This document shows, piece after piece, positions 19,332-36,075 of a stretch of 50,661 nucleotides of DNA; within the stretch, counting starts at the first letter, position 1, and each line of letters starts with the position of its first letter. The stretch is taken from positions 1 to 50,661 of the forward strand of contig CABVRW010000004.1 in the NCBI GenBank assembly GCA_902500785.1, written 5' to 3'. The notes under the pieces were generated by a model. That model had not been told where the DNA came from, ran no database searches, and was given only the letters and a program-made list of their open reading frames with translations. The DNA is from an uncultured Nitrospira sp. GTDB lineage: Bacteria > Nitrospirota > Nitrospiria > Nitrospirales > Nitrospiraceae. The position numbers were made by a program, and so were the translations under genes.

Positions 19332-19332
19332 G

Positions 19333-20199: not shown

Positions 20200-21462
20200 T
20201 CACGACACTACTTCAGCCTTCCCTTTACTCTTTAGCACGTCATGAATTACACCTTTGAAACGCCTCACCGCTTCGGATAGTTGATGATGTTCCATTGCAT
20301 ATTTATATGCGCGATGACCACATTCGCGTCGCAGACTTCCTGACACCAGGAATTGCTGCACTAGTTGGAGCAGCTGCGCGAATGATCCGCCTGCACACGC
20401 GCCAATACCCTGCCGAGTCAGTACGCCATCGGGGTCGACTGCCAAGGATAGTATCGGAGTTCGAACCATTGCGGCTTGAACAAATGTGTTGGGAAAACCT
20501 TCATACTCAGACGTACAAACCAGCACTTTAGCACTCTCGTAAAATGAGTCCATCTCATGCCATGGCATGTTCTCATGCACGCAGAGATTGGGTATGGTCG
20601 CTGCCTGTGTGCGAATCTCCGACCAAAGATCAGGATGACCATCATCTTTCTTGATCACCATCGTACAGGGCACATGTGGATAGTGGCGTGCGACGTCTAA
20701 GAACAGGTGAGGTCGTTTCAAAGGGACGACTCTTCCCACCCACAAGAGAGTCTCCTTTTCCTCGAATACTCGCCCTGAATTCCTCTCCGTTCGATCCGCA
20801 TGGGCTGTCTTAATTAAGACTCCCTCCTTATGAAAACGCGCCCGCAGCCATTCCTGCTGTTCCGTGGATCGGCACACCACAACATGTGCATATCGAACCC
20901 CCAACGGATACAGCCACTGCAAGGGTGACGTCACACCGCCGGCTATCGCTCGCACATCGGCCGAGGAGGCAACAACAAAAACAAATCGTTTCTTGAGAAG
21001 CCGACAAATTGCAGCGTAGGCACCCACTTCGACGCCGGCTCCTGCATGGATATAGACATCCGCATTTATCGATCGGAACAAGGCAAGCATTTCGACAAAT
21101 GCCGCCAGATAATTAACGATACCATTCGGAACTGCATACCAACGCTTCTGAATGAGTCGACCGCCCGATCGACGCTTGACTAACGTCAGACGCCCTACTT
21201 GCTCACTTCCTTCCACATCATTCACAGTCACTAACACTGATACTTTATATCCCTCTTCAACAGCCAACGCATTGGCAAGGAGAAACAGCTGGAATTCAGC
21301 TCCACCAGCACATTCGACTGTCGAACCATACAAACTAGCTCCCAATGGAGAGATCACGCAGACATGAACAGTCCCTTCTTGTCTCGTCTCGTTTACACAA
21401 TTTCCATCTTTCGCCCGAGGCCAACTGAATGCGCTGCAAAGCTGCCTGGCTAACGCAGTCAT
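20200..21462 (-). CDS. GT4-family glycosyltransferase with E-x7-Q donor motif
   Basis: A 420-residue glycosyltransferase. After a 30-residue lead it has VHVCVISPLGASLYG and a GGAEFQLFLLA loop, then LLWVGRVVPLKRPHLFLD and EGFPNTFVQAAMVRTPILSL in the donor half. The second Glu of E-x7-E is Gln here, followed by VDPDGVL, a variant I recall from other GT4 enzymes of polysaccharide loci. The ATG at 21462 is preferred because GAGG stands six bases before it; a GTG at 21501 in frame lacks this. It sits 33 bases before the Wzm permease gene. Substrate unknown. Confidence 0.85.
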   Translation of the reverse strand: MTALARQLCSAFSWPRAKDGNCVNETRQEGTVHVCVISPLGASLYGSTVECAGGAEFQLFLLANALAVEEGYKVSVLVTVNDVEGSEQVGRLTLVKRRSGGRLIQKRWYAVPNGIVNYLAAFVEMLALFRSINADVYIHAGAGVEVGAYAAICRLLKKRFVFVVASSADVRAIAGGVTSPLQWLYPLGVRYAHVVVCRSTEQQEWLRARFHKEGVLIKTAHADRTERNSGRVFEEKETLLWVGRVVPLKRPHLFLDVARHYPHVPCTMVIKKDDGHPDLWSEIRTQAATIPNLCVHENMPWHEMDSFYESAKVLVCTSEYEGFPNTFVQAAMVRTPILSLAVDPDGVLTRQGIGACAGGSFAQLLQLVQQFLVSGSLRRECGHRAYKYAMEHHQLSEAVRRFKGVIHDVLKSKGKAEVVS

Positions 21463-21538
21463 TGGATGCCTCGCATCAGCATTGTACGTGTAGCCTTCCA
21501 CGCTCTCGCCACAGCCCCTGCCGGACGGTCATACGTTC

Positions 21539-23437
21539 TCATGCGGCCAAGGATCCAGCGCTCGCGTGGTCATCTACATATGCACAATGCCAAAGCTCCA
21601 ACATCAGCAATGCGTATAGTTTATACCCGCAAGCGATTCCTCGCTGCTGATGTTCATCTAGCAAGTTCTGTATATAGCCGCGAGAAAAATATCCTCGCGT
21701 CACGCTGCGGGATGATAGAAGCGTGTCTCGAACATAATCCCGACAGTCCTCACGGAACCAACGATCAATAGGCACACCAAATCCCTGCTTGCTTCGGGTA
21801 ATGATCTGTTTCGGCAGCACTTCTCGCATGGCCCGCTTCAATAGATATTTTGTCTCTCCATTACGAACTTTAAAACCAATGGGCAAAGCGGCTGTGAACT
21901 CCAAGAGCTTATGATCCAAGAATGGGCTGCGTGCCTCAAGCCCATGCGCCATAGTCGATCGATCCACCTTCACTAATAAGTCGTCTGGCAGATAGCTCCG
22001 AATATCAACGGCCAGCATCTGGTCGAGCAGCTCGGCCATGGGAGCGTCCTCAAACCATCGATTGAGTAGCGAAAATGAGTCATGTCCCTGAATAAGGGCC
22101 GAAAATTCCGGCGTGTAGAGGGAGGTTTTGTCGTGGGGAGAGAAGTAGCAAATACGGTTCAAATAGGTGGCGGCAAACGAGTCACACGCACGCTCGGCAA
22201 TTTGCCGAATTGCGCGCGGCAGAAGTGAAAGTGGTACGCGCAGAAGAGTGGCTTTCAGCGACTCTCGAACATGTTTACCAACATACCGGCTCATCCATCG
22301 TTCCAGCTCACGATAGTTATATCTGGGATATCCTGCCAGCGCTTCGTCACCTCCATCGCCATTCAGCACCACCTTGACCGACTGACGGCTCAATTGCGAG
22401 AGATAGTAAGTTGGTATCGCGGAGGAGTCGGCAAACGGCTCATCGTAAACGCAAACTAATTTTGGCAAAATCTCTAGCGCAGAAGGCTCTACGATAAATT
22501 CATGATGGTCTGTGCTAAATCGCTGGGCGATCTCACGCGCATACGGCAGTTCATTAAACGCCTCCTCCTTAAAGCCGATCGAGAAAGTTTTAACCGGCTG
22601 AGTCATGCATCTACTCATGACGGCGACTATGCTGCTCGAGTCCAATCCGCCACTCAGAAATGCCCCAAGAGGGGCATCACTAATGAGGCGAAGTCGCACA
22701 GATTCATCCAGAAGACTCTTAAACGCCTCTAGATATTCTTCTTCAGTTCCAAACTTGACCTTTCTATCGTATTGCAGTGACCAGTAGGTATCGAAAGATA
22801 TCTTCCCCTGATCACATACCATCACCTGACCGGGAAGTAACTTTTTGATGCCACGGTAAATTGTTAGCGGGGCAGGAATGTATTGAAACGTGAGGTAATG
22901 ATTGAGTGCGATAGGGTCAATCTCCGGCCTTGACGGCTCGACTAGCAACGCTTTGAGCTCAGATGCAAAAGAAACACTCGTATCGGTGACCCTATAAAAA
23001 AGAGGTTTTTTCCCGATGCGATCTCTAGCTACCATAAGGCGCTGCGCCGCTTCATCCCATACGGCAAAAGCGAACATTCCTCGCAGCATCGACAAACATT
23101 GCACTCCATAGTCCTCATAGAGATACAGCAGTACTTCCGTGTCGGTTCGAGTACGAAAGTTACGAGGCGTTCGGAGGCATCCTCGCAATTCCTCAAAGTT
23201 GTAAATTTCTCCGTTAAAAACGATCCACACGTTCCCTTGAGCATTGGACATCGGCTGATGTCCCGCTTCACTCAAGTCTAAAATACTTAATCGTTGATGA
23301 GCGAGCCCGGCATGACCTTTGACATACACACCAGAATCGTCCGGTCCACGATGACTAAGTCGCGCCCCCATGGCCATAAGCAATTCGCGTTGCAATGGCT
23401 GCCGATCAAATTGTATTTTCCCGGCTATTCCACACAT
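21539..23437 (-). CDS. AsnB-like glutamine amidotransferase (asparagine synthase family), copy 2
   Basis: A 632-residue class II amidotransferase starting exactly at MCGIAGKIQF, so Cys2 is in place for glutamine hydrolysis. The glutaminase domain shows LSHRGPDDSG and EIYNFEELR; the synthetase domain shows SGGLDSSSIVAVMSR and LNGDGGDEALAGYPRYNY, and VDRSTMAHGLEARSPFLDHK near the C-terminus, all as in AsnB. It is nearer to the classical bacterial AsnB pattern than copy 1, so it could be a true asparagine synthetase, or the amidating enzyme of the glycan pathway. It lies 16 bases after the methyltransferase gene and 76 bases before the next glycosyltransferase. Confidence 0.9.
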   Translation of the reverse strand: MCGIAGKIQFDRQPLQRELLMAMGARLSHRGPDDSGVYVKGHAGLAHQRLSILDLSEAGHQPMSNAQGNVWIVFNGEIYNFEELRGCLRTPRNFRTRTDTEVLLYLYEDYGVQCLSMLRGMFAFAVWDEAAQRLMVARDRIGKKPLFYRVTDTSVSFASELKALLVEPSRPEIDPIALNHYLTFQYIPAPLTIYRGIKKLLPGQVMVCDQGKISFDTYWSLQYDRKVKFGTEEEYLEAFKSLLDESVRLRLISDAPLGAFLSGGLDSSSIVAVMSRCMTQPVKTFSIGFKEEAFNELPYAREIAQRFSTDHHEFIVEPSALEILPKLVCVYDEPFADSSAIPTYYLSQLSRQSVKVVLNGDGGDEALAGYPRYNYRELERWMSRYVGKHVRESLKATLLRVPLSLLPRAIRQIAERACDSFAATYLNRICYFSPHDKTSLYTPEFSALIQGHDSFSLLNRWFEDAPMAELLDQMLAVDIRSYLPDDLLVKVDRSTMAHGLEARSPFLDHKLLEFTAALPIGFKVRNGETKYLLKRAMREVLPKQIITRSKQGFGVPIDRWFREDCRDYVRDTLLSSRSVTRGYFSRGYIQNLLDEHQQRGIACGYKLYALLMLELWHCAYVDDHASAGSLAA

Positions 23438-23453
23438 GACCTATCCTCATTGG

Positions 23454-24398
23454 CTACGCGTGAGACTTACGGCCTCGGACCGAAACTGGAAAGCTCAACA
23501 CCTGGATCTCTTTCAAGCTAGCCCCGTTGAACCAACCAATCACTTCTGGCTCCTTATGTTTCCACTGATAGCGAGGGGAGTACGCGTCAAATGTGTCCAA
23601 TACGTCCCAAGTAAGTCCGCGACCTTGGTCACTAACCGGAACAAGCATGGCTAAGTATTTGATCCCTGGCACGTGCCTCATCGTTCTGAAAAATGGCACC
23701 AATAGCCAACACATCACATACAGTGAGAATTGTGGAATTCGAGTCGTAAGGGCTCGCACCCTATCAAGACGTTGAGAATAGAGGCCCGCATCAACGTACA
23801 CCCAAATTGCAATCGTGCCTCCTTGCTTCAATAAGGGAGGGAGACATGCAAAGGCCTTGCGTGTGTCGGGAGTATGGTGCAGCACTCCTATGGAATAAAT
23901 CGCATCAAACGTATCCGATCTGAATGGGAGACGAAAAACGTCTGCCTGCACGACATGAATTCCAACCCGGCGCCCCATGTTCAGATACGCTGCGTCGACC
24001 GCATATGACAGATCGATGCCTATAACTTCCGCACCCAAGCTATTGGCGACCTCCATAAATCGCCCGGTCCCCACGCCAACATCTAAAACCAATTTGTCTT
24101 TCAGCTCAGAATCCGTCAATCCCGTTTTGGTTTGGAACGTCTTGCAGGACTCGGAGTGTCCTGCAATAGAGTCTACCTGGGTCGTCCGATGAGTATTCCA
24201 TTGAAAAGAGAAGTTCTTGACGTACGCGTCTGTCGAGACAAACCTGGGAATACCTCGTACAATTGGATAGGATTTGGTGCAAGACGGGCAAAGAAGTTCG
24301 CCTTGCTCAATTTCCTGCCCATCCGCTTCCACGATGGAAAGACTCAATGACTGCTTGCAATCTGGACATACAAGATATGACACCAACTTCTCTTTCAT
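23454..24398 (-). CDS. SAM-dependent methyltransferase with N-terminal zinc ribbon
   Basis: A 314-residue protein. Residues 1-50 form a Trm112-like zinc ribbon with Cys11, Cys14, Cys37 and Cys40 (LVCPDCKQ and LLCPSCTKSYPIVRGIPRF). Residues 60-220 are a class I methyltransferase: motif I VLDVGVGTGRF (104-114), an acidic residue in IGIDLS, ADVFRLPFRSDTFDAIYSIGVLHH as the post-II region. The C-terminal 90 residues contain a hydrophobic stretch (LYVMCWLLVPFF). This layout is common in polysaccharide loci, where it may methylate a sugar or cap a chain end, but the substrate is not fixed. Its ATG overlaps the upstream glycosyltransferase TGA by four bases, so the two are translationally coupled. 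Confidence 0.88.
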   Translation of the reverse strand: MKEKLVSYLVCPDCKQSLSLSIVEADGQEIEQGELLCPSCTKSYPIVRGIPRFVSTDAYVKNFSFQWNTHRTTQVDSIAGHSESCKTFQTKTGLTDSELKDKLVLDVGVGTGRFMEVANSLGAEVIGIDLSYAVDAAYLNMGRRVGIHVVQADVFRLPFRSDTFDAIYSIGVLHHTPDTRKAFACLPPLLKQGGTIAIWVYVDAGLYSQRLDRVRALTTRIPQFSLYVMCWLLVPFFRTMRHVPGIKYLAMLVPVSDQGRGLTWDVLDTFDAYSPRYQWKHKEPEVIGWFNGASLKEIQVLSFPVSVRGRKSHA

Positions 24399-26164
24399 GG
24401 GTTTCCTTCGCTCCCATCATTTAAGTACTTATCCGCGCCATCGACTTTACCATTACCGTCTCTCTGAACCTGCCCACTCTCGCATTGCCATAAGTAGCAA
24501 CCTTGTATAGCTCTGGCGACCTGATCAGCCGAAAACATCCGATATGCTCGCCTTTTGGCCGCCTCCGCGAATTCTCTTCTCAACGGAATATCCCGCATCA
24601 GTTTCACTATCTTTTCCGCGACGGCTGGAGAGTCGGCACAAGGCACGACGAACCCCGTTTCTCCATCCACGACAACTTCCACTGCCCCACCCGCAGCCGT
24701 CGTCACTACTGCGACTCCGTATGCCGCCGCTTCCAGCAATACATTGGGAAACCCCTCGCTTCTAGACGTGAGCACCAACACGTCCATCAATTGCATAAGT
24801 ACCAGGGCATCCCGTCGCTCTCCCGTCAAAATCACATGATGGTCCAACTCAAGATCGGCAATCATACTTCTGATCTGCCCTTCCGATGGTCCTGCACCAA
24901 CTATTAAGAATTTTACGTGTGGAATTGCCTGGCGAATAAGATGGGCGGCCTTCAAAAATGTCGCATGATCCTTCTCGGGCGACAGACGCCCGACAATACC
25001 CACAACGGGGGCGCCTCGAGGAAGGGCAACCTCATTGCGGAGACGCTCTTCTTCGGTAGGGAGGACACCTTGAATTGTACTGAAGTCGATGCCGTTATAG
25101 ATGGTAACGATTTTTCGATCCGGCAATACAATCTTCCGTCGATTCTCTTTTCTTACGGCCTGGGAGTTGGCTATTACGATTGTTTGCAGCGGAGCTGTCA
25201 TGGCATACAGAACACGCTCCCACAGTGGGAAAAACCACGGAAATCGGCTGGGATGCTCACTTCTAACGGACGCTATAATCGTCGGAGTTCCAATGAGTGT
25301 GCCGGCGATGCCTCCAAGTGCGCCCGCAGAAAACAACCAATTATGCAAGACATGACTTGGATTGCGGTACAAATAGCTGATCAATTGCCAAATGATTCCC
25401 ACTTCATACAATTGCCAGTGGGGATTGAGATAATGAATCGTCACATTCAAGTCACGAATTGCCGGCTCAAAAAACTTATCCAAGGCGTCGACCGTCACCA
25501 CTTCTACATCCCACTGACTTCGATCAAGACGTTCAACAAAAATTGCCAACTGACGTTGGGCGCCGCCCAAGCCTAAGCTAGGAATATGAAGCACGACTTT
25601 TCGGCGGCCGGCGGGCAATCTATTCTTAACCCTCCACTGGCCCGGATGAAGCCCGACGGCGCTTGCAACCTTCATGACTAACGCAGCACCAGCCAATGCG
25701 AACGTTCCTACGATGGATACACTTCGGCGGATCCTCCACCAGATTGTTCTAAGAAGACCGAGTCCGAGAAATATGACTCGCGCGATAGTGGTCACGAACA
25801 GACTTTCAAGGACCCAGGTCGAGAGGATGAACTCTTTGAATTGACGAGATTTGTTATAAGAGGCGATCCGATGAATTCTTAGGCGAATCGGAATTGAGCG
25901 AAATGTCCAATACTGGATGCCAAATCGATCTTCAAAAGGCACTAGGCAATAATCAAATGTTGTACTGAGCATGCTGAGCGTCTTGCTCAAATTCTCCTTG
26001 TGAGTCTGTAGAATCTCTTGAAATAAGTGACCAGCCTTCGCTTCGTCTAGATCACCCAATTGAATGAGACCCGTCAGCCTTGCCTGAGGATAGCGCACAA
26101 CAGTTTCCTGCACGGCAGCGTGGAAATGGTCGTATCGACCCGTCTGCACAGCAAGAATGTTCAT
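24395..26164 (-). CDS. GT4-family glycosyltransferase with extra N-terminal domain
   Basis: A 589-residue protein, nearly 200 residues longer than the other GT4 enzymes here. Residues 1-115 (MNILAVQTGRYDHFHAAVQE...) are an unrecognised alpha/beta-looking domain, followed by a hydrophobic region (about 118-175) that probably makes membrane contact. The GT-B part runs from about 190: VVLHIPSLGLGGAQRQLAIF, GIVGRLSPEKDHATFLKAA, and the E-x7-E motif SEGFPNVLLEAAAYG. The ATG at 26164 is chosen because AAGGA precedes it with good spacing. It is the first glycosyltransferase read in the cluster and the first gene of the AT-rich block, 68 bases after the ABC-2 permease. Its role is unknown. Confidence 0.86.
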   Translation of the reverse strand: MNILAVQTGRYDHFHAAVQETVVRYPQARLTGLIQLGDLDEAKAGHLFQEILQTHKENLSKTLSMLSTTFDYCLVPFEDRFGIQYWTFRSIPIRLRIHRIASYNKSRQFKEFILSTWVLESLFVTTIARVIFLGLGLLRTIWWRIRRSVSIVGTFALAGAALVMKVASAVGLHPGQWRVKNRLPAGRRKVVLHIPSLGLGGAQRQLAIFVERLDRSQWDVEVVTVDALDKFFEPAIRDLNVTIHYLNPHWQLYEVGIIWQLISYLYRNPSHVLHNWLFSAGALGGIAGTLIGTPTIIASVRSEHPSRFPWFFPLWERVLYAMTAPLQTIVIANSQAVRKENRRKIVLPDRKIVTIYNGIDFSTIQGVLPTEEERLRNEVALPRGAPVVGIVGRLSPEKDHATFLKAAHLIRQAIPHVKFLIVGAGPSEGQIRSMIADLELDHHVILTGERRDALVLMQLMDVLVLTSRSEGFPNVLLEAAAYGVAVVTTAAGGAVEVVVDGETGFVVPCADSPAVAEKIVKLMRDIPLRREFAEAAKRRAYRMFSADQVARAIQGCYLWQCESGQVQRDGNGKVDGADKYLNDGSEGNP

Positions 26165-26232
26165 GAGAGTTCCTTCAATTCCTACACCGGAAGGCAACCG
26201 TGTGGTCCGACAAATGAAGCTGAGGAGATGAG

Positions 26233-26997
26233 CTAAAAGTCTCGTCGTTGAAATACCGCACAGGCGGCAGTGAGGATCACACCAGCATAGATCACCCCAT
26301 ACAATGACGCGAGAAATACATACTGGTGGCTCGCGAGAATCCCGACTGCGGCCTGTCCCTTAATATTCATCAACTCCAGATTGGGAAACACGTAATAGAA
26401 TGCGTCCACGACGCGACTCACAACAATGCTCCCGCTGCTCTCCGCCAAGGTTCGCACATCAGCCGTCAAATGCCCCACCACATAAATACCCAATGTTAAA
26501 ATGGCACTGAGAGTCGAGGAGCTGAACGTCGAGAAAAAGAGCGCGATGGCGGTCACCACCAAGATTTCGACGAAGATCAGTTGAACCGACTGGAAGAGAG
26601 AAAATACAATCGGCACGTGATAGAGCCACAGCGTCACGAGAAACACAGCCAGCATAATCGACATATTCACAAATAGGGTGAACGTCAATCCAAGATATTT
26701 CCCAAGGATAAATGATGTCCGGCTGATCGGCCTGGCCATAATCGTATAGATCGTGCGTCGTTCGATTTCTTTATTGACCAGACTGATGCCGACGAAAATG
26801 GCGATGATGACGCCGACCAAGTTGATTGCCGCCAAGCCCATATCCGCGATGACCTTGTGATGCTCGGTAATGGAAAGGTCCGCGAGCAGCACCGAGAGAC
26901 CGATGAGTAACCCGGCAAACAACACCAGATTGTAGAGAATCTTGTCCCTCAGGCTCTCACGGAACGCATTCAATGCGATGACTCCAATGGCACCCAT
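26233..26997 (-). CDS. ABC-2 type transporter permease, PilI-like
   Basis: A 254-residue membrane protein with about six segments and the ABC-2 family feature VNKEIERRTIYTIMARPISRTSFILGKYLG in the first cytosolic loop. It forms a transporter with the ATPase whose stop codon is one base upstream; GGGAGGG precedes the ATG at 26997. In Myxococcus xanthus an ABC pair (PilH/PilI) encoded near pilA is needed for pili, and the position here, in the same run as two pilin genes, suggests the same kind of function. Export of another substrate is equally possible from sequence alone. The G+C drops just downstream of this gene. Confidence 0.85.
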   Translation of the reverse strand: MGAIGVIALNAFRESLRDKILYNLVLFAGLLIGLSVLLADLSITEHHKVIADMGLAAINLVGVIIAIFVGISLVNKEIERRTIYTIMARPISRTSFILGKYLGLTFTLFVNMSIMLAVFLVTLWLYHVPIVFSLFQSVQLIFVEILVVTAIALFFSTFSSSTLSAILTLGIYVVGHLTADVRTLAESSGSIVVSRVVDAFYYVFPNLELMNIKGQAAVGILASHQYVFLASLYGVIYAGVILTAACAVFQRRDF

Positions 26998-26998
26998 A

Positions 26999-27970
26999 TC
27001 AGGACACCCTCCCACGCATCATATGCGCCGGCACAGGCGAGGCTTCGTGCGCAGCCTCATGGAAAAATAAATCTTCAAGCGATGCCTTATGAGGGGTCAC
27101 CGAGAGCAACCGCCCCCTCTGGCGTCGGATCTCACCAACCATGGCATCCACCGCATCCGGGTTAGGCAAGACGATCAGGCATTGCTGACCTTGCTGTATC
27201 ACGCGTGTGGCAAGAGAATGAATGAATGCGTTTCCTTCCGTCTTGACCTCCTCACAGACGATCTCGACCGACTGCGTGTGATCGCGCCGGACCAACTCGT
27301 CGACTCGCCCGCTGGCCAACAGACGACCTCTCATGACAATACCGACACGATCGCAAATCATCTCGACGTCATGCAGAATGTGCGTGCTGAAAAAGACCGT
27401 CTTGCCTCGGTCTCGCAAGCTCAGGATCAGATCGCGCACCTGCTTCCTACCGACCGGGTCCAACCCGGTCATCGGCTCATCCAAGATGATCAGTTCAGGA
27501 TCGTGAATCAGGGCTTGGGCCAACCCAATACGTTGAAGCATGCCTTTGGAAAATTTGCGCAATTGCCTCATGCGCGCCTCAGTGAGACCGACGAGTTGCA
27601 GCAGTTCGGACACCCTGTGTGCAATCACTGCGCGACTCAACCCTGCCAACTGCCCATAAAAAAAGAGAAACTCTTCAGCGGTCAGATAGTCATAGAAATA
27701 GGGCGATTCCGGCAAAAAGCCTATTCGACTCCGAGTTTCCACATCGCCTACAGGCTGCCCCAACAGCGATGCCGTCCCACTGGTTTGACGGACAAGACCC
27801 ATGAGTATCTTGAGAGTCGTCGTCTTACCCGCTCCATTCGGCCCTAGAAATCCAAAAATTTCACCTTTACGGACCGTCAAAGACAAGCCGTCCAGCGCGA
27901 CAAAGGGAGGACGCCCAGGCCAACCAGAGGCATATGATTTCGTCAAGGCTTCGATCACAATGTCGTTCAC
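26999..27970 (-). CDS. ABC transporter ATPase, PilH-like
   Basis: A 323-residue ATPase of the ABC-2 (CcmA/NatA) type. Walker A GPNGAGKT at 43-50, Q-loop region GFLPESPYFYDYLTAEEF, signature FSKGMLQRIGLAQ (140-152), Walker B LIILDEP with Glu165, and a C-terminal extension of about 90 residues. It energises the permease encoded directly downstream. It lies 12 bases after the helical-repeat membrane protein gene, forming with it and the ligase gene a tight operon that follows the two pilin genes. The resemblance to the pilG-pilH-pilI order of Myxococcus is from memory and should be checked by alignment. Confidence 0.88.
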   Translation of the reverse strand: MNDIVIEALTKSYASGWPGRPPFVALDGLSLTVRKGEIFGFLGPNGAGKTTTLKILMGLVRQTSGTASLLGQPVGDVETRSRIGFLPESPYFYDYLTAEEFLFFYGQLAGLSRAVIAHRVSELLQLVGLTEARMRQLRKFSKGMLQRIGLAQALIHDPELIILDEPMTGLDPVGRKQVRDLILSLRDRGKTVFFSTHILHDVEMICDRVGIVMRGRLLASGRVDELVRRDHTQSVEIVCEEVKTEGNAFIHSLATRVIQQGQQCLIVLPNPDAVDAMVGEIRRQRGRLLSVTPHKASLEDLFFHEAAHEASPVPAHMMRGRVS

Positions 27971-27982
27971 CGCATCCTCCCT

Positions 27983-28939
27983 CTACTTGAACACAGGCAT
28001 CGGATTTTCCACGAATGGGCTGGGGAGATTCGACTTCTCAGCAGGGTGGCAAGCTACTTTTTCATGGATACGTAACCGTTCGCGCCTCGAAGAAGCGCTG
28101 ACCCTACCTGTGAGGGGATCAACTTGATACTGACCCCCTAACGGATCGATCGGCAGTTGTTGAATCACTCCGCGCAACAGCAGGTCTTCAAGTTTGGACG
28201 GAGGCTGTCCATATTTCTGCCGATACTGCCGGGTAGCATCTTCCAAGAAATACAGGTCCTTTTCCTGAGTCACTTCTTGCATTCGCTGCAGAAGTGCCTC
28301 CCGCACGCGCGCATCCGTCACCGAACGAGAAAACCGGTCGAGAAACTCAAGCGCCGCCGTGGGCTCACCACTTTCTACCGTCATGCGCGCCGCCAATTTC
28401 GGCAAGTAGGCCGGGGCACCGGGTATCTGCGCAGCCTCCTGCAAATATTTTCCACCTGCGATCGGATCGCACTGTTCGTAATAGGCGATATAGCCGGCCA
28501 AAAATGGGAGCTGCCACACTCCGGGATTGTGGCGAAAGCCTTTGCGAAGGATATCGATCCCCTCTTCATGTCGGCCGACCAGAACTCCAAGAAACAGGCC
28601 GGTCGCCTGATAGGGAGGAACGAATGTCGGATCCAGATCTGTGAGCACATCCACGGCATGATAGGTCCATCGATATCCAAGGTGCGTATCGCGCTTGGCT
28701 CCGATGTGATGAACTGCCTGTAGCCAGATCAGGTCTGCGATCACTTGTCGATAGCCGAGCACCGCCAATTTCAAATATTCTCCCTTAGGGAGATAGGCCA
28801 ATTGCTCGGCCCGCGCGACCGCGTTTCGCTCGTGATCCAAGATATGGAGCAGCCCTGATGCGCCGGCTAACAGAGCCATCCCCCAGAAGGCCTGGAGCAG
28901 CCCGCGCTTCACGTGCCATAGGGGGCCTCCAAACTTCAT
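27983..28939 (-). CDS. Membrane-anchored helical-repeat (TPR-like) protein of the pilin locus
   Basis: A 318-residue protein with one N-terminal membrane segment (LLQAFWGMALLAGASGLLHI, about 14-33) and a periplasmic part made of amphipathic helices with TPR character (for example GRHEEGIDILRKGFRHNPGVWQLPFLAGYIAY and PTAALEFLDRF). A C-terminal segment, ATRQYRQKYGQPPSKLEDLLLRGVIQQLPIDPLGG, resembles the variable C-terminal part of pseudopilins, where PxDP[WF]G is common, so it may contact pilins. I do not recognise a named family. Its ATG overlaps the ligase TGA by four bases and the ABC ATPase follows 12 bases later, so it probably works with both. Confidence 0.72.
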   Translation of the reverse strand: MKFGGPLWHVKRGLLQAFWGMALLAGASGLLHILDHERNAVARAEQLAYLPKGEYLKLAVLGYRQVIADLIWLQAVHHIGAKRDTHLGYRWTYHAVDVLTDLDPTFVPPYQATGLFLGVLVGRHEEGIDILRKGFRHNPGVWQLPFLAGYIAYYEQCDPIAGGKYLQEAAQIPGAPAYLPKLAARMTVESGEPTAALEFLDRFSRSVTDARVREALLQRMQEVTQEKDLYFLEDATRQYRQKYGQPPSKLEDLLLRGVIQQLPIDPLGGQYQVDPLTGRVSASSRRERLRIHEKVACHPAEKSNLPSPFVENPMPVFK

Positions 28940-30933
28940 CCGGCTATGTCCTTTTCTCCGACGGCGGCACGAAGAGGCACGACATCAACATTTAGAAATG
29001 CCTGCTCGAAACTATTTTTGTTCCACTGTTTAAACTGCGCTTGCCGAGCCTGGATTTCTTGAAGCTGGTTTCGCGCCTCGTCTACACGTCCCGCATGTAC
29101 CCACAGGCGTGCCAGGAGTGCGCGAGCAGGCAGAAAGTTCGGCTCCAAATCCTCCGCCTCTTTGGCTCTGCGTTCAGCTTCGCTCCGCTCTCCAAGCATC
29201 CAGTAGAGTCGCGCTTGTTCATATCGATATATCGCAGAAAACGGCGCAAGGTGAGTGGCTCGTTCATACGCCTGAACCGCCGCGCGTAACCAGGCCTTTT
29301 GCTGTTCATCGGAAGTCGTGGGAGAAGATGAAGCCTGTGCCGCCGACACATACAGCTGCCCCAGCAGCCCGAACAACCGGCCGTCGAGCGGATTCAACTC
29401 AGTCGCAGCTTTGAACTCTGCATGAGCAAGTTGGAACGCGTGTCCGTCGCGCGTGTCCTGAAATTCTCTCGCATAGACCGACCCGAGACCATGATGGTAC
29501 AGCGCCTTTCCCGGATCCAACTTAATGGCCGCCTTCAATCCCTCGATCGCCGCAATAGTCTCTCCTGCGATGGCCCGACGAGACGCCGCATCAAACTTCA
29601 TCCAGGCAACACCCATTCGCGTCACTTCTACCCCGGCAACCATGATCAGACATGCGGCACCGATTCCCCATGCCAGGCGTGAGTGGATCGGTATGACATA
29701 CACAGCTCCGGATCCACGGCGGGTCAATCGTCCAACCGAGACAATCAGTCCGGCGCACAGCACCAGCAAGATCGCAAGAGCCGCCTCACGCAAACTCGAA
29801 TCAAGCACGGCATGGACAAGCAGCGCGATAACCCCACCCCCCACGCCCACCATGAGACTCCGCTGCCAACGCCTCAATCGCGACTGAAGCACACGCATCA
29901 GTTCTCGAATGACCAGCACAATGCCGGTCCCAAACACGAGGATTGCCCCGGTCCCCATTTCAACACCCATTTGGAGATAATCGTTGTGTGGAGTCTGGGC
30001 GACTTTTCCAAATCGTGAGATCTCGCCCTCAACCGGAAACGCATAGAGGGGATACGTGTACTGGTAGAGTCCCAGCCCGATTCCCAATGGATGATCGACC
30101 ATTTGCGCAGTCGCCCCCTGCCACATCTGCCAACGCGCGTAGGAGACTGGATTTTGTTGATGCTCAGCCAGGATACGTTCGCGGATCGGCGTGGGGACCA
30201 GAACCCCGGCGAGCACGAGTAACAGCACACAGCTACCGGATAACTTCCACCCATACCGAGCGGTCAGCACAAAGACAGTCCCCGCAAAAAATACGATCAT
30301 GCCCCCTCGTGACTGGGTCAACAGAACGGCAAGGAACAGGCCGGACAATGCCGAGCCAAGACCGATCCACCAGAGGACCGGCGGCATCCACGACTGCGAA
30401 AATACCGAGACGTGTCGATAGGCATGCACCGCGACGCTCAAGAGAATCGCCCAGGTCACCGTGAGATATCCGGCCAGAAAGTTGGGATTGAAGAAGGTGC
30501 CGCTGGGTCTCGCGGCATTCCATGCAAAGCCTTGCACGATCGCCCATCCTGCTTCGCCGACCCCCATCAACACGATCATTGCAGTCAACGTGCGCACATG
30601 CTCCCAACGGTCAACGAAAGAAACAAGTAAATAGAACAACGTGGCATACCCCGCGATCATGATCAGCCACTGTCGACTCGGATGCGGGTAGGGAGAAAAG
30701 ATGGTCGCCACCAGAGCAAGTCCGACAAACGCCAACACGACATACCTCACCGCAAGCACAGGGACGGCAAGCCGTTCCGCTCGTATGCCGACCGCCAGAA
30801 CGATTCCCAGCCACACTAGAATCAACAGCCTGATGATCATTTGCGCCGGATGCGTCGTGCCGCCCTCCTGCAGAGGCGAAACGATCACGAGTGCACTGAT
30901 CACCAGAAGCGAAATGGAAGGCAGAATGTTCAT
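28936..30933 (-). CDS. O-antigen ligase/Wzy-C family membrane protein with C-terminal TPR domain
   Basis: A 665-residue inner-membrane protein. About twelve membrane segments fill residues 5-450; the large periplasmic loop carries the family motif AQTPHNDYLQMGVEMG with the expected catalytic-type His316, plus LGIGLGLYQYTYP and SRGGMIVFFAG. From about residue 465 to the end is a soluble TPR region (LYHHGLGSVYAREF, LFGLLGQLYVSAAQ, YRYEQARLYWMLGERSEAERRAKEAEDLEPNFL). Ligase-family proteins transfer lipid-linked glycans to lipid A (WaaL) or to pilins and other proteins (PglL/TfpO). Adjacency to two pilin genes favours a protein-glycosylating role, but this is inference. I use the ATG at 30933; an in-frame TTG at 30999 would add 22 residues. 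Confidence 0.85.
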   Translation of the reverse strand: MNILPSISLLVISALVIVSPLQEGGTTHPAQMIIRLLILVWLGIVLAVGIRAERLAVPVLAVRYVVLAFVGLALVATIFSPYPHPSRQWLIMIAGYATLFYLLVSFVDRWEHVRTLTAMIVLMGVGEAGWAIVQGFAWNAARPSGTFFNPNFLAGYLTVTWAILLSVAVHAYRHVSVFSQSWMPPVLWWIGLGSALSGLFLAVLLTQSRGGMIVFFAGTVFVLTARYGWKLSGSCVLLLVLAGVLVPTPIRERILAEHQQNPVSYARWQMWQGATAQMVDHPLGIGLGLYQYTYPLYAFPVEGEISRFGKVAQTPHNDYLQMGVEMGTGAILVFGTGIVLVIRELMRVLQSRLRRWQRSLMVGVGGGVIALLVHAVLDSSLREAALAILLVLCAGLIVSVGRLTRRGSGAVYVIPIHSRLAWGIGAACLIMVAGVEVTRMGVAWMKFDAASRRAIAGETIAAIEGLKAAIKLDPGKALYHHGLGSVYAREFQDTRDGHAFQLAHAEFKAATELNPLDGRLFGLLGQLYVSAAQASSSPTTSDEQQKAWLRAAVQAYERATHLAPFSAIYRYEQARLYWMLGERSEAERRAKEAEDLEPNFLPARALLARLWVHAGRVDEARNQLQEIQARQAQFKQWNKNSFEQAFLNVDVVPLRAAVGEKDIAG

Positions 30934-31057
30934 AACCGCACGCAAGTCATGTGACGAAGCAGACACCTCCTGCTTTATCAGACAGGGGCGATTTGGCAAA
31001 GGGAAATTGAAAACCTAGGCATGACACGCCACGAACCGCAGCAAAAAATCTCAGCGC

Positions 31058-31090: not shown

Positions 31091-31127
31091 AATGAAAACG
31101 GGGGAGGAATGACATTCCTCCCCCGTT
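31091..31127 (-). terminator. Rho-independent terminator of the pilin transcript
   Basis: On the minus strand a perfect 14-bp stem (AACGGGGGAGGAAT paired with ATTCCTCCCCCGTT, 31097-31127) with a three-base loop is followed by a T-rich tail, TTTTCATTT. It lies 22 bases after the stop of the pilin gene at 31150, so it should separate the highly expressed pilin message from the ligase/ABC genes. Confidence 0.9.
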
Positions 31128-31149: not shown

Positions 31150-31668
31150 TTAGCCGTTCACATCGTCAGGAACAGCCTGGGTCAATCCACTCTTGACGTC
31201 GTTGACACTCCACCCGTCGATGGTGGTGTCACTGTCGAGATTCGCAACTGCCGAGGCGGTGAAACCAACCGGGCTGATAGCGGCAAGGCTAGCAACAGAT
31301 CCGGTTGCTCCATCAGCGGGGTTCGTACAACCTGAAGGAGCCCCGCAGGCAATATAGTCAACGTTCACCACACCTGACGATGTAGCCGTGCCACCAGCCG
31401 CTGGGCTGCGATACGTATACCGATTGGTCGACCCGGCCAAGGCATAGCCAATCTCTGAGAAGCTCCCGTATCGGGATTGCTCGCTGAGATAGGCCGTCTC
31501 CGCCACGAAGACCGCGCCCAAGTTGGTTTTGGCTTCCGCCTGTCTGGACTTCGCCTGGTACCGCAAGAAGTTCGGAATGGCGATAGCTGCCAAGATTCCG
31601 ATGATCGCCACCACGATCATCAACTCAATCAACGTAAAACCTTTTTGACCCTTGATTTGCTTCAACAT
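31150..31668 (-). CDS. pilA: Type IV major pilin-like protein, copy 1
   Basis: A 172-residue prepilin. The ATG at 31668 follows AAGGGAGGAAGT, an excellent ribosome site, and gives a short leader [10 protein letters not shown] cut before [20 protein letters not shown] (Gly-Phe cleavage by PilD, Glu5 present). The body has [29 protein letters not shown] and NRYTYRS, as in pilins of Deltaproteobacteria and Nitrospirota, and a CGAPSGC pair that could form a disulfide. It ends [22 protein letters not shown], the same frame of residues as the neighbouring pilin. A sigma-54 promoter match stands about 100 bases upstream and a strong terminator follows, so it is probably its own transcript. Confidence 0.93.
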
Positions 31669-31769
31669 ACTTCCTCCCTTTCCTATTGTTGCCACTTCAT
31701 CCGACACGTTCTTCTCTCTTGCCTCTTCGTACGACACAGCTTTTTTCAAGCCTAGCAGATCTTGGGAAT

Positions 31770-31921: not shown

Positions 31922-32449
31922 CTAGCTCGACACGTCATTGGGCTCTGCAGCATCCAAACCCTGCCGCGCGTCGTTCACATACCAACCGTCATGCGTCGCA
32001 TCTCCGTCGAGATCCGCAGCCGCTGTGGCGGTGAATCCTGCTGTCGAGGTCATTGCGGCGCCCACGGTTCCAGTGAAGGTGATCGTTCCCGCCGTAGGAG
32101 ATTCCGTCTGAATCGTGTCGCAACTGCCGGAAGACCCGCACAGATTGCCCCCATTCAGTCCCAACCCTGCTCCAGTCCCTAAACCGGTTCGATAGGTATA
32201 GCGGTTCGTCCCACCCGCGGCGATGGCAAAGCCAATATCCGTGAAATTTCCAAATTCTTTTCGCTCCGTGAAGAACGAGGTCTCGGCCACAAAAATACCC
32301 GCTAAATTCGATCGCGCCTCGGCCTGCATGGCTTGGGCCCGGTATCGAAGAAAATTCGGTATCGCCAAGGCAGCCAGAATTCCCACGATCACCACCACAA
32401 CCATCAATTCGATCAGCGTAAACCCTGTCTGTTTTGATATGGTCATCAT
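31922..32449 (-). CDS. pilA: Type IV major pilin-like protein, copy 2
   Basis: A 175-residue prepilin with leader MMTISKQTG cut before FTLIELMVVVVIVGILAALA (Glu5 present). The first 55 mature residues closely follow copy 1 (NFLRYRAQAMQAEARSNLAGIFVAETSFF, NRYTYRTG); the middle differs, with a Gly-rich loop and a CGSSGSC cysteine pair, and the end DGWYVNDARQGLDAAEPNDVSS again matches copy 1 in pattern but finishes with two serines. Two adjacent ATGs (32449, 32446) are possible starts, both with a weak ribosome site. A strong sigma-54 match lies just upstream. The two genes are likely an old tandem duplication whose products build one pilus or alternate. Confidence 0.92.
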   Translation of the reverse strand: MMTISKQTGFTLIELMVVVVIVGILAALAIPNFLRYRAQAMQAEARSNLAGIFVAETSFFTERKEFGNFTDIGFAIAAGGTNRYTYRTGLGTGAGLGLNGGNLCGSSGSCDTIQTESPTAGTITFTGTVGAAMTSTAGFTATAAADLDGDATHDGWYVNDARQGLDAAEPNDVSS

Positions 32450-32791: not shown

Positions 32792-34645
32792 CTACTGGAC
32801 TGGAGCGGTGTCTTTACGGTCGGAGACGCGCCGAATGGCCTGGCGGATCCGTTCTTCCTTGGCAGGATCGCCCAAGCCAAGTTCTCGAAATCGCTGCATC
32901 AACTTGTCATTGGACGGATCCAGTTCGAGTGAATGCAGAAGGGCCTCTCGACCATCCGAGAGGTGTTGCTGTTTCAGATAGATTTCGCCGAGATGCTCAT
33001 AAATCACGGGATCATCGCCCACCAACGCCACCGCCCGCTTCATCTCTGCGAGGGCATCGGGCAGGAGTCCCTTTTTGAAAAAGGCCCACGCCAAACTATC
33101 GACATAATACCCGTTGGTCGGGCGAAGTGCGACGGCCTGTTTGGTCAACGCGATCGCCTCCTCAAGCTTCACGCCTCGATCCGCATAACTGTAGCCCAAA
33201 TAATTCATGGCGTCGGCATGGTGAGGATCCAGCGTGAGCGTCGTCTGCATCGACTTCTCAACGTCCTCGAAACGATTCAATTTGTCATACGCGGTCCCGG
33301 CATTGAAGTGCAGATCCGCATTGTCCGGATTGTGACGAATCCCTTCCAAAAACGCCTGCAGGGAGGGCTCATATTGCTCCATCTGAAAATGCGACAGCCC
33401 AAGGACGATATGGGCTTCAGGCTGCTTCGGATTCAAGCGGCTGGCTTCCTGGAGATGCCGGATGGCCTCGGCATAGTGCTTAGTCCGATACAGCAAGACA
33501 CCCAAATGGAGATGCCCCTCAAAATACGACGGCTCCAACGTGAGATTGTGACGGTAGGCCTCCGCCGCATGCGCGTAATCCTTGGACTCTTCGTACAGAT
33601 ACCCTAAGTAATCGCGGACCTTGAGCTCCGTCGGGCGTACCGTCAGAATCTGATTCAGCTGCTCAATGGCTTTGGGATAATTTTTTTGTTCACCATACAC
33701 AAGACCCATCCGGAGCTGCGCATCGAGGTCGGACGGATCCTCCGCCAACATCTCCCGTAGTTCCTGCAGCGCCTCATCGTACTGCTTGGCCGACACCTGC
33801 AGACGAATCAGATGATGCCGGATGTCCCGGTTTTTGGGATTCACTCCCTGCAAATAGCGACGATAGATACCGATCGCCTTGTCACGGTCCTGCTTCGCCT
33901 CATAGACGGATCCCAACGCCACATACGCCGGCTCAAACGCCGGATTCAGGGTCACAGCCTGTTCGAAGTGAGTCGTCGCCTTGTCAAAATCTCTGGCCTC
34001 AACACTAATGCGGCCTAAATAATAGTATCCAACCGCCGAATCAGGACTGACCTTGATGCCAGCGCGGATGGTCTCCTCTGCGTCGCTATATTGCTTCTGA
34101 TTGGCCTGCAACAAGCCCTTCGCAAAAAAGTGTTCGCTTCGCTGCGGTTCCTGCTGAATGGCACGATTGAACAGGCCCAACGCCTTGTCCGGTTTCCCAG
34201 CAGCGGCATACATACCGCCGATCTGGCCCAGCATCTGGGCGTCCAAACCCGGCGCATCAGCGACCTCGTCAGCAAAGCGCACCGCAGCAGGCACATCACC
34301 CGCAGTGAAATACAACACCGCCAGCCGAGCTTTCAGATAGTTCGATGCGGGATCCGTTTGCAACGCGAGCTGATACTCCTTGATCGCATGCTCCGTCTCC
34401 TGATCCAGCTCGGCCTGATACCCGAGCAGAAAGTGATAGGAGGCACGGGAATCCGAGGAGGGGGACACCGCACGAGGCGGGGCGGGGGCGACGGTGGGAA
34501 CCACGGGCGGAGCCGGGCGAGCGCTTTGGCAGGCGGCGGTGACACACGACACTGCCGCCAGCAACAATGCTACCGTTCCGACACGGACAGGCCTCCTTCG
34601 GACGAGACGCTGCCGACGCTCTTCACACAATCCTTGCACAATCAT
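32792..34645 (-). CDS. Large TPR lipoprotein
   Basis: A 617-residue protein with a lipoprotein signal (VGTVALLLAAVSCVTAAC, lipobox VTAAC), a Pro/Ala-rich linker (PAPPVVPTVAPAPPRAVSP) and then a continuous array of about fifteen 34-residue TPRs to the C-terminus, e.g. AVGYYYLGRISVEARDFDKATTHFEQAVTLNP. Such proteins are membrane-tethered scaffolds; this one could help assemble pili, since pilins follow, or act in cell-envelope traffic. I start at the ATG at 34645, the most natural start for the signal peptide; the frame is open to 34723, overlapping dnaB, but that extension is not signal-like. It lies 74 bases after dnaB on the same strand. Confidence 0.82.
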   Translation of the reverse strand: MIVQGLCEERRQRLVRRRPVRVGTVALLLAAVSCVTAACQSARPAPPVVPTVAPAPPRAVSPSSDSRASYHFLLGYQAELDQETEHAIKEYQLALQTDPASNYLKARLAVLYFTAGDVPAAVRFADEVADAPGLDAQMLGQIGGMYAAAGKPDKALGLFNRAIQQEPQRSEHFFAKGLLQANQKQYSDAEETIRAGIKVSPDSAVGYYYLGRISVEARDFDKATTHFEQAVTLNPAFEPAYVALGSVYEAKQDRDKAIGIYRRYLQGVNPKNRDIRHHLIRLQVSAKQYDEALQELREMLAEDPSDLDAQLRMGLVYGEQKNYPKAIEQLNQILTVRPTELKVRDYLGYLYEESKDYAHAAEAYRHNLTLEPSYFEGHLHLGVLLYRTKHYAEAIRHLQEASRLNPKQPEAHIVLGLSHFQMEQYEPSLQAFLEGIRHNPDNADLHFNAGTAYDKLNRFEDVEKSMQTTLTLDPHHADAMNYLGYSYADRGVKLEEAIALTKQAVALRPTNGYYVDSLAWAFFKKGLLPDALAEMKRAVALVGDDPVIYEHLGEIYLKQQHLSDGREALLHSLELDPSNDKLMQRFRELGLGDPAKEERIRQAIRRVSDRKDTAPVQ

Positions 34646-34719
34646 CCGCTCAACGTGTAGAGGGAATATTCGGAGGACATCCAACGATGCGGGATTATAC
34701 CGGCCCGAGAAAGAATGCG

Positions 34720-36075
34720 TCAAACGGCCTCGCGAGTCTCCAGGCTCTCAAACTTGGCAAACCGATCATGAAAAAACAACTCCCGTTTTCCGATCGGCCC
34801 GTTGCGATGCTTACTGACTAAAATATCGGCGATGCCTTTCCGTTCCGTGCCCGGCTCGTAGACTTCTTCACGGTAGATGAACATGACCACGTCGGCATCC
34901 TGCTCGATCGCGCCGCTTTCCCGCAAATCAGCCAGCATGGGAATCGGCGGTTTCCTGGCTTCAACCGCGCGGCTCAACTGCGACAAGGCAATGACCGGGA
35001 CGTTCAGCTCTTTGGCCAGGCTTTTGAGGGATCGCGAGATGTCGGATATTTCTTGCTGCCGCGATTCGGAGTCGCTCTTCCCCTGCATGAGCTGCAGGTA
35101 ATCCACAATCAACAAATCGAGGCCCCGTTCGGCCTTGAGCCGTCTGGCTTTCCCACGCATCTGCTGCACGGTCACGGCTCCGGAATCGTCGATAAAGATC
35201 GGCGCTTGTTCCAGCTTGCCGGCCGCCTCAGCCAACCGCCACCAATCTTCCTTCTGCAGCCGGCCGGTTCGAAGGGAGTGCGAATCGACCCGGGCCTCGG
35301 AACTCAACATGCGGAGCACCAGTTGCGGCTTCGACATTTCGAGGCTGAAAATTCCGACGACGGTCCCGGCGTGAAGCGCGGCATGTTGCGCCATCCCGAG
35401 CGCCAGACTGGTCTTCCCCATACTCGGCCTTCCGGCCACCACGATCAAATCCGAAGGCTGCAATCCCGCCGTCAAGTCATCCAGATCGTAAAACCCTGTG
35501 GGCACGCCCGTCACACGTTCCTTCCGCTTGGACAGCTTGTCTACGACATCAAGGCTCTCTTTGATGATCTGATTGACCGGCGTAAAAGACCGATCGAGCT
35601 TTCCCTGGGCAAGACTAAAGACCGAGCGTTCGGCAAAATCCAGCAACTCGTCGACGGCCACCGTCCCGTCATACCCGCGGGTCACGACCTCCGTCGAGGT
35701 TTGAATGAGTCCGCGCAGCAACGCCTTGTCTCGCACGATCTTGCTGTGGTACCGAATGTTCGCCGCCGTCGGCACCACCTGGACCAGCTCGGCCAGATAG
35801 GCTGATCCTCCGATCGCCTCAAGCTCCGAACGCCCCTTCAGGCATTCCGTCAGCGTGATCTGATCGATGACCTCGCCGCGATCGGAGAGTTCGAGCATTG
35901 CCTGATAAATCTTGCGATGCGCGGTCCGGTAAAACTCCTCATCCGTCAGCACTTCCATAACCTTGGCCATCGCCGTATTGTCCAGCAAAATAGCGCCGAG
36001 CACCGACTGTTCGGCCTCGACATTCTGCGGTGGCAACTTGGGCGCGGTGAGATCCATGGCGGAAAGCGCCTTCAT
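34720..36075 (-). CDS. dnaB: Replicative DNA helicase DnaB
   Basis: A 451-residue hexameric helicase that unwinds DNA at the replication fork. The N-terminal domain has PPQNVEAEQSVLGAILLD; the RecA-like domain has Walker A GRPSMGKT (215-222), VGIFSLEMSKPQL, Walker B DLLIVDYLQLM and the arginine-finger region SKHRNGPIGKRELFF near the C-terminus. The length is normal and there is no intein insertion. The first ATG overlaps the hisZ stop by four bases (ATGA), so the two are translationally coupled; a second ATG six codons later (36057) is possible. Linking a replication helicase to hisZ and serA is a chance-looking but tight arrangement. Confidence 0.97.
   Translation of the reverse strand: MKALSAMDLTAPKLPPQNVEAEQSVLGAILLDNTAMAKVMEVLTDEEFYRTAHRKIYQAMLELSDRGEVIDQITLTECLKGRSELEAIGGSAYLAELVQVVPTAANIRYHSKIVRDKALLRGLIQTSTEVVTRGYDGTVAVDELLDFAERSVFSLAQGKLDRSFTPVNQIIKESLDVVDKLSKRKERVTGVPTGFYDLDDLTAGLQPSDLIVVAGRPSMGKTSLALGMAQHAALHAGTVVGIFSLEMSKPQLVLRMLSSEARVDSHSLRTGRLQKEDWWRLAEAAGKLEQAPIFIDDSGAVTVQQMRGKARRLKAERGLDLLIVDYLQLMQGKSDSESRQQEISDISRSLKSLAKELNVPVIALSQLSRAVEARKPPIPMLADLRESGAIEQDADVVMFIYREEVYEPGTERKGIADILVSKHRNGPIGKRELFFHDRFAKFESLETREAV

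Follow-up and report, generated by a model that had tools for sequence, protein, structure and literature searches.

In a 50,661-nucleotide (nt) window from an uncultured Nitrospira sp. (contig CABVRW010000004.1), a minus-strand gene at 28936..30933 encodes a 665-amino-acid (aa) Wzy_C ligase with a tetratricopeptide repeat (TPR) arm, which keeps a constant place within a pilus operon across Nitrospirota and a Desulfobacterota-type phylum. We put at about 55% the probability that this protein is a pilus-dedicated O-oligosaccharyltransferase, which attaches a mostly Wzm/Wzt-exported glycan to the adjacent pilin and whose TPR arm recruits the acceptor. This reading builds on the observed domains, fold, invariant residues, predicted topology and conserved gene order, together with the co-occurrence of the ligase and Wzm/Wzt. 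Coordinates below are positions in the window, meaning the whole stretch analysed, while loci in other contigs are labelled with L-numbers.

By its Pfam family, active-site residues and fold, the focal protein is a ligase of the WaaL/PglL superfamily. Wzy_C (PF04932) matched aa 198–334 with 66.2 bits against a cut-off of 31.7, and TPR matches spanned aa 458–637 (TPR_19, 31.7 bits, cut-off 25; TPR_11, 28.7 bits, cut-off 26.8). The AlphaFold model (predicted local distance difference test (pLDDT) 89.0; predicted template modelling score (pTM) 0.87) contains 12 membrane helices, a helix at 419–455 and a TPR-type solenoid to about residue 657, giving a membrane core (aa 1–406), a thirteenth transmembrane helix (TM13) from about 419 and a TPR arm of ~220 residues (about 443–657). 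Residues 1–406 of the model matched WaaL (7tpg_B; Z 27.9, 371 residues aligned, root mean square deviation 4.1), while residues from about 441 to 665 matched TPR proteins, MamA and the O-GlcNAc transferase TPR domain among them. The first-pass annotation had described a ligase-family protein in which about 200 TPR-like residues follow the membrane part, and the Pfam matches, model and fold matches all bear this out. Its accompanying generalization, that WaaL/PglL proteins usually end soon after the membrane part, did not hold: all 7 of the 7 unlinked Wzy_C proteins scanned also matched TPR families, WsfB and PglL are reported to carry a C-terminal TPR motif (PMC2943079), and PglS is described as having 13 TM helices and a large periplasmic C-terminal domain (PMC12800693). 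The TPR tail was accordingly rejected as a distinguishing feature.

R209, R267 and H316 of the ligase align with R215, R288 and H338 of Escherichia coli WaaL (numbering and importance as given in PMC3643930); of the 29 pilin-linked sequences in the alignment, all have the two arginines and 28 have the histidine. The model places R267 and H316 in a long loop. Averaged over the 29 aligned relatives, net charge is +2.3 for loop 10–11, −1.7 for loop 11–12, +1.6 for loop 12–13 and −2.9 for the TPR arm; by the positive-inside rule, these values predict a periplasmic location for the TPR arm as well as for the loop with the catalytic residues. The earlier suggestion that a TPR arm would be suited to binding an acceptor protein gains from this predicted location, which is where pilin would be, with pilin itself still a putative acceptor. 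As for the start of the gene, the open reading frame (ORF) extends over 28936..30999 (minus strand) with TTG as its first start, and the ATG at 30933 yields the 665-aa protein. No obvious Shine–Dalgarno-like sequence lies close to this ATG and an AGGAGG occurs ~33 nt upstream, so that the ATG is a putative start.

Both prepilin genes lie upstream of the ligase on the same strand. The nearer, prepilin 2 (31150..31749, minus strand), is a 199-aa ORF with a GFTLIEL motif (PF07963, 39.5 bits) that is conserved beside the ligase and is the proposed acceptor; prepilin 1 (31922..32449, minus strand; 175 aa; N_methyl PF07963, 34.4 bits) is kept upstream of it in the genus. Downstream, the stop codon of the ligase overlaps the start of a PilG-like gene (27983..28939, minus strand) in the sequence ATGA. 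This is followed by genes for an ATP-binding cassette (ABC) transporter ATPase in the PilH-like position (26999..27970, minus strand; PF00005, 101 bits; synteny) and an ABC transporter permease in the PilI-like position (26233..27015, minus strand; PF12679, 40.5 bits; synteny).

We examined the conservation of this slot in an initial sample of 148 genomes of the same phylum (Nitrospirota) and in 345 genomes of a Desulfobacterota-type phylum. Ligase matches were found in 27 of the 148 genomes; 17 were near full length (29–79% identity), and the order pilin, ligase, PilG-like protein and ABC ATPase was present in all 17. Among the 345 genomes, 16 ligase matches reached E ≤ 1e-40. The ten best loci (L147–L156) share the gene order of the window, a further two (L157 and L158) are immediately preceded by pilins, and the remaining four (L159–L162) are unlinked. 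A contig scan of named genomes gave 77 loci, the stronger of them nearly all from Nitrospirota. Seventy homologues scored at least 400 bits and 67 of these had at least 300 bp upstream, making them scorable; a pilin gene lies within 500 bp upstream of the ligase in 66/67. The placement of the ligase 'beside pilins' in the first-pass annotation is thus upheld, both by the two prepilins of the window and across the family. At the same threshold, loci with room downstream carry the PilG-like gene in 65/66, the ABC ATPase in 56/56 and the permease in 55/56 cases. The exceptions are L091 (454.7 bits), which lacks a pilin, and L158, which lacks the PilG-like gene and the permease.

A clostridial homologue of 380 bits (L101) has no pilin, and among homologues below 300 bits a pilin was found in 1/19 and PilG in 0/18. 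The single pilin-bearing case, from Schekmanbacteria (L093), lies at a truncated contig end and is a true start of a pilin–ligase arrangement; there and in a deltaproteobacterium (L090) the pilin alone was seen, the contig then ending. The most complete row, in a Nitrospirota metagenome-assembled genome (L034), reads pilB, pilT, pilC, response regulator, pilA, second pilin, ligase, PilG-like gene, ABC ATPase and permease. Among cultured Nitrospira, Ca. N. defluvii (L068) carries the locus. As the place of the ligase beside pilin genes is kept in such distant bacteria, the sugar-coating of pili is its probable function.

We next considered the donor side. In the window, the operon is followed by genes for a Wzm-like ABC permease for glycan export (19333..20166, minus strand; PF01061, 60.8 bits) and a Wzt-like ATPase with a Wzt_C glycan-binding domain (18075..19349, minus strand; PF14524, 80.5 bits, plus PF00005). 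We compared 42 ligase loci that had a detected permease and at least 7 kb beyond it with 12 ligase-less loci carrying pilA–pilG; these loci are related by descent and do not count as independent. Within 7 kb behind the PilI-like permease, 40 of the 42 ligase loci had at least one glycan-gene match, 35 matched Wzm and/or Wzt, and 29 matched both. In the same interval, Wzm, Wzt or glycosyltransferase matches were found in 0/12 ligase-less loci, four of which had a DegT-type aminotransferase as their only glycan-gene match. An independent search with Wzt_C was compared with those for the ligase and the PilG-like family in the genomes sampled for both. The domain lay no more than 11 kb from the ligase in 9/14 ligase genomes, and it was on the PilG contig in 0/11 ligase-less family genomes. 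The ligase and Wzm/Wzt therefore tend to be present or absent jointly across loci.

The same exporter also speaks for the main rival, in which the protein has WaaL function as a lipopolysaccharide (LPS) O-antigen ligase, joining Wzm/Wzt-exported polysaccharide to lipid A–core, and a polysaccharide locus has docked onto the pilus operon. The Wzm/Wzt and glycosyltransferase genes that follow the operon fit this account, as do the WaaL fold and the fact that, of the four Wzy_C proteins in the genome, only the focal one is found with Wzm/Wzt and not with another polysaccharide cluster. However, a docked locus would not place the ligase between pilA and pilG in different phyla, and the genome has another Wzm/Wzt pair outside this locus. 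No LPS-core gene was found among the 29 window proteins scanned for families, a result that counts against O-antigen ligation but leaves it standing. Since the focal ligase is the sole ligase candidate seen in the genome, this rival stays alive, although we regard it as unlikely. A broader enzyme is a further alternative: a bifunctional or general ligase could serve LPS and several periplasmic proteins, pilin being one acceptor among them. That only one non-polymerase Wzy_C candidate was seen in the genome would suit such an enzyme, and general O-glycosylation is reported from Neisseria (PMC3643930); the strict linkage to the pilus operon nevertheless points to one main client, and we consider this alternative distinctly improbable.

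Exopolysaccharide clusters house the other three Wzy_C proteins of the genome. The first is accompanied by a Wzx-type flippase and a Poly_export protein and the second lies near another Wzx-type flippase, so that at least two are in Wzx/Wzy-type clusters. The third (L205, contig C18, 7900–10587) is an 895-aa fusion of Wzy_C with a GT4 glycosyltransferase, beside a Bac_transf sugar transferase. None of the three has a TPR match. A search of the genome with PF13425 was also made, in which the controls themselves had no match. In a tree built on the ligase core, from which L150 was left out for its truncated core, 28 pilin-linked sequences fell on one side of a branch (97/90), with 27 unlinked sequences, four PglL proteins, two geopilin-slot proteins and E. 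coli WaaL on the other; the positions of several long outer branches are uncertain. The clustering with Wzy polymerases that the first-pass annotation had named as evidence against its reading is not what the tree gives, as the pilin-linked clade stands apart from the three other Wzy_C proteins of the genome. These results bear on whether the focal protein is itself a Wzy-type exopolysaccharide polymerase. It shares its Pfam family with such enzymes, and the other Wzy_C proteins occur in exopolysaccharide clusters, two near Wzx-family flippases. Against this, the pilin-linked ligases form a separate clade, no Wzx-family match was found among the 29 window proteins scanned, where Wzm/Wzt occurs instead, and an ABC-exported glycan needs no Wzy. 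As the exopolysaccharide clusters have Wzy_C proteins of their own, a polymerase role for the focal ligase is unlikely, and we rank it as the least probable of the explanations considered.

The PilG-like family extends well beyond the ligase, occurring in 58/148 Nitrospirota-phylum and 86/345 Desulfobacterota-type genomes. The ligase clade is present in 17/148 Nitrospirota-phylum genomes, all 17 of which also carry the PilG-like family, and is absent from 41 of the 58 with that family. We examined 20 ligase-less PilG loci. In 12, pilA directly precedes pilG and the ABC genes, the order known from Myxococcus; the other eight (L169, L172–174 and L179–182) have other arrangements and were excluded from the downstream comparison. 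Two of the eight, L172 (7300–9845) and L173 (5389–8002), carry a short geopilin/PilA-N-like pilin, a small secreted protein, a Wzy_C protein, ABC genes and PilG. The tree joins this Wzy_C protein, which sits on a long branch, to PglL (91/85); neither copy matched PglL_A at E ≤ 1. Another lineage of ligases seems to have come to occupy this slot. In L181 (7120–8244) and L182 (6556–7167), a membrane-anchored TPR protein with no ligase domain lies between the pilin and ABC genes, as if the arm alone had been kept or acquired.

The occurrence in this slot of a TPR protein that has no ligase domain favours a different role, that of a pilus-assembly or signalling factor. Any ligase activity would then be secondary or lost, and the TPR arm would handle pilin together with the PilG-like protein and the ABC transporter. 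The neighbours also match pilA–pilG–pilH–pilI of Myxococcus xanthus, where PilGHI is described as needed for pilin translocation (PMC3724824). The near-invariance of the R/R/H active site among the pilin-linked sequences argues against such a role, which we consider very unlikely.

We therefore return to pilin glycosylation as the preferred reading, for which the following pathway may be proposed. In the cytoplasm, a WecA-like enzyme and GT4 glycosyltransferases encoded on the same strand would assemble a glycan on a polyprenyl carrier; in most lineages, the Wzm/Wzt ABC transporter, whose genes follow the operon, would carry it into the periplasm. Through R209, R267 and H316, the WaaL-type core of 12 helices would then transfer the glycan from its carrier to Ser/Thr residues of the pilin or prepilin. 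The periplasmic TPR arm would keep close to the active site either the pilin itself or a partner bound to it, for example the PilG-like protein. In this scheme we infer the enzymatic activity, the identity of the donor, the pilin acceptor and the role of the TPR arm.

Several observations weigh against this reading. In the window, a strong GC-rich hairpin resembling a terminator or attenuator (31097..31127, minus strand; 14-pair stem and T-rich tail) separates the ligase from prepilin 2 within a gap of ~216 bp, and a similar hairpin occurs in the pilin–ligase gap of 46/67 loci, including most Nitrospirota loci examined. The hairpin makes co-transcription of pilin and ligase uncertain in this genus. 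We read the hairpin as attenuation between an abundant pilin and a scarce ligase; in L034, L090, L152, L153, L155 and L156, the two genes abut or overlap (gap 0–9 bp). Wzm/Wzt matches are missing from 7/42 ligase loci, no known acceptor sequon was found, and TPR tails are frequent among unlinked Wzy_C proteins. The focal ligase, as the only Wzy_C protein of its genome linked to Wzm/Wzt, could be the LPS ligase. In one pilin-linked ligase (L147, 2936–4933), a Glu aligns with the catalytic His column (AESDAL); this ligase retains the full operon and is possibly inactive or of changed chemistry. Finally, pilin Ser/Thr content is higher at ligase loci (0.208, n = 67) than at ligase-less loci (0.168, n = 12; p = 0.0013), a comparison uncorrected for phylogeny that was set aside as weak and confounded support for glycosylation.

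To the same side belongs the distance of the ligase from PglL. PglL_A (PF15864) had no match in the focal ligase at E ≤ 0.1 and none at E ≤ 1 in six pilin-linked relatives, while positive controls matched. Wzy_C_2 (PF11846) likewise had no match in the focal ligase; it was sub-threshold in the relative L149 (17.9 bits). The PglL-specific residues Q178, N180, G316, G318, H400, E404 and P406 correspond to N149, N151, G284, G286, H374, D378 and S380, so that four of the seven are kept and Q178, E404 and P406 are changed to N, D and S. Membership of PglL was thus ruled out by motif. PglL-type features that are present are the neighbouring pilin gene and the C-terminal domain after TM13, predicted to be periplasmic from the model and loop charges.

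Protein O-oligosaccharyltransferases of the Wzy_C family encoded next to pilins are already known; what differs here is the state of the PglL motifs and the bond with PilG-like/ABC genes and Wzm/Wzt. PglL, PglO and PglS of Neisseria and Acinetobacter share with the focal ligase a Wzy_C core, the R/R/H residues, pilin neighbours and a periplasmic C-terminal domain (PMC3643930, PMC12800693). Pilin genes are reported to adjoin 21/31 PglL candidates (PMC3643930), and the periplasmic domains of Neisseria PglO are reported to decide PilE targeting (PMC9239064). Unlike these enzymes, the focal ligase has true TPRs besides its divergent motifs, and it is tied to the PilG-like/ABC genes and to Wzm/Wzt export. 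In Pseudomonas aeruginosa, the gene for the PilO/TfpO ligase is likewise adjacent to and co-oriented with that for pilin, and the enzyme lacks PglL motifs (PMC3643930). The donor differs, as PilO/TfpO uses a single O-antigen unit. We know of no PilGHI-like or Wzm/Wzt block at that locus.

In architecture, which alone was compared, the ligase resembles enzymes of Paenibacillus and Geobacillus: WsfB is described as an O-oligosaccharyltransferase with Wzy_C and C-terminal TPR, and WsaB as acting behind Wzm/Wzt, whose exported glycan goes to a surface protein (PMC2943079). Theirs is a Gram-positive S-layer acceptor, whereas here the ligase lies in a pilin operon of Gram-negative phyla. With WaaL (7tpg, Cupriavidus metallidurans; E. 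coli K-12 waaL), the fold is shared over residues 1–406 and the catalytic residues align, but sequence similarity is low, at 15% across the structural alignment, and the focal ligase adds TM13, a periplasmic TPR arm and a pilus operon. FlmG of Caulobacter offers a protein glycosyltransferase with a TPR domain, through which it is reported to bind its acceptor flagellins (PMC7591256); it is, however, a cytoplasmic GT-B enzyme with an N-terminal TPR and a different reaction. In Synechocystis, loss of a KpsM/Wzm-type exporter is reported to shift the mass and glycosylation of PilA, with LPS described as unchanged (PMC7885315).

By gene order alone, the operon resembles M. xanthus pilA–pilG–pilH–pilI in its succession of pilin, PilG, ABC ATPase and ABC permease. 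Also by gene order, it resembles the Geobacter xap cluster, in which ABC-transporter genes follow pilins: by locus number, GSU1498–1508, with the ABC ATPase XapD (GSU1501), lies directly behind the pilin genes GSU1496–1497 (PMC4974642, PMC3495685, PMC5585712). The xap genes may thus be the same module. We found no published account of this ligase in Nitrospira or in a PilGHI context in a search that left most subscription literature outside.

The first-pass annotation had overlooked what accompanies the ligase, namely the PilG-like/ABC genes and the Wzm/Wzt exporter. The PilG-like protein consists of an N-terminal helix and a TPR-like solenoid; it has no Pfam family over the cut-off, and its model (pLDDT 82.1) had no match in the PDB at E ≤ 0.001, with weak TPR-type fold matches only. 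Its family conserves a C-terminal motif, P-x-[ED]-P-x-G-G-x-Y. Upstream of the prepilins lies a large TPR protein (32792..34723, minus strand; 643-aa ORF), identified by TPR matches and synteny, with a lipoprotein-like N-terminus whose lipobox was read by eye; it immediately precedes the pilins in most Nitrospirota loci that have enough upstream sequence.

Between the PilI-like permease and Wzm lie, all on the minus strand, genes for a GT4 glycosyltransferase (24395..26197; PF00534, 135 bits), an S-adenosylmethionine methyltransferase (23454..24398; PF08241), an asparagine-synthase-like amidotransferase of surface-glycan type (21539..23437; PF00733; TIGR03108 at 627 bits, under its cut-off of 816.9) and a second GT4 glycosyltransferase (20200..21501; PF00534). 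A WecA/MraY-family polyprenyl-phosphate sugar transferase (12560..13618, minus strand; PF00953, 118.8 bits) is the candidate for the first donor step. The glycan locus also encodes, at 3329–5341, a 670-aa protein combining GFO_IDH_MocA oxidoreductase and epimerase/dehydratase domains.

If pilin glycosylation is correct, nitrite-oxidizing Nitrospira and a Desulfobacterota-type phylum use a TPR-armed enzyme to glycosylate their pili, one that falls outside the PglL motif definition and would therefore be missed by current PglL models. The shared operon would also offer a testable role for the long-puzzling PilGHI ABC genes behind pilA. A bolder possibility, which we hold tentatively and with the odds against it, is a pilus polysaccharide pathway in which the ligase, the PilG-like/ABC genes and a dedicated Wzm/Wzt attach long ABC-exported chains to type IV pilins. 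The pilus would then be an anchor of matrix polysaccharide, which would explain the Geobacter xap genes and the Myxococcus PilGHI ABC transporter behind pilA. If pilin glycosylation holds, pili would be linked to surface polysaccharide export where both matter, in biofilms and in electron transfer by Geobacter relatives.

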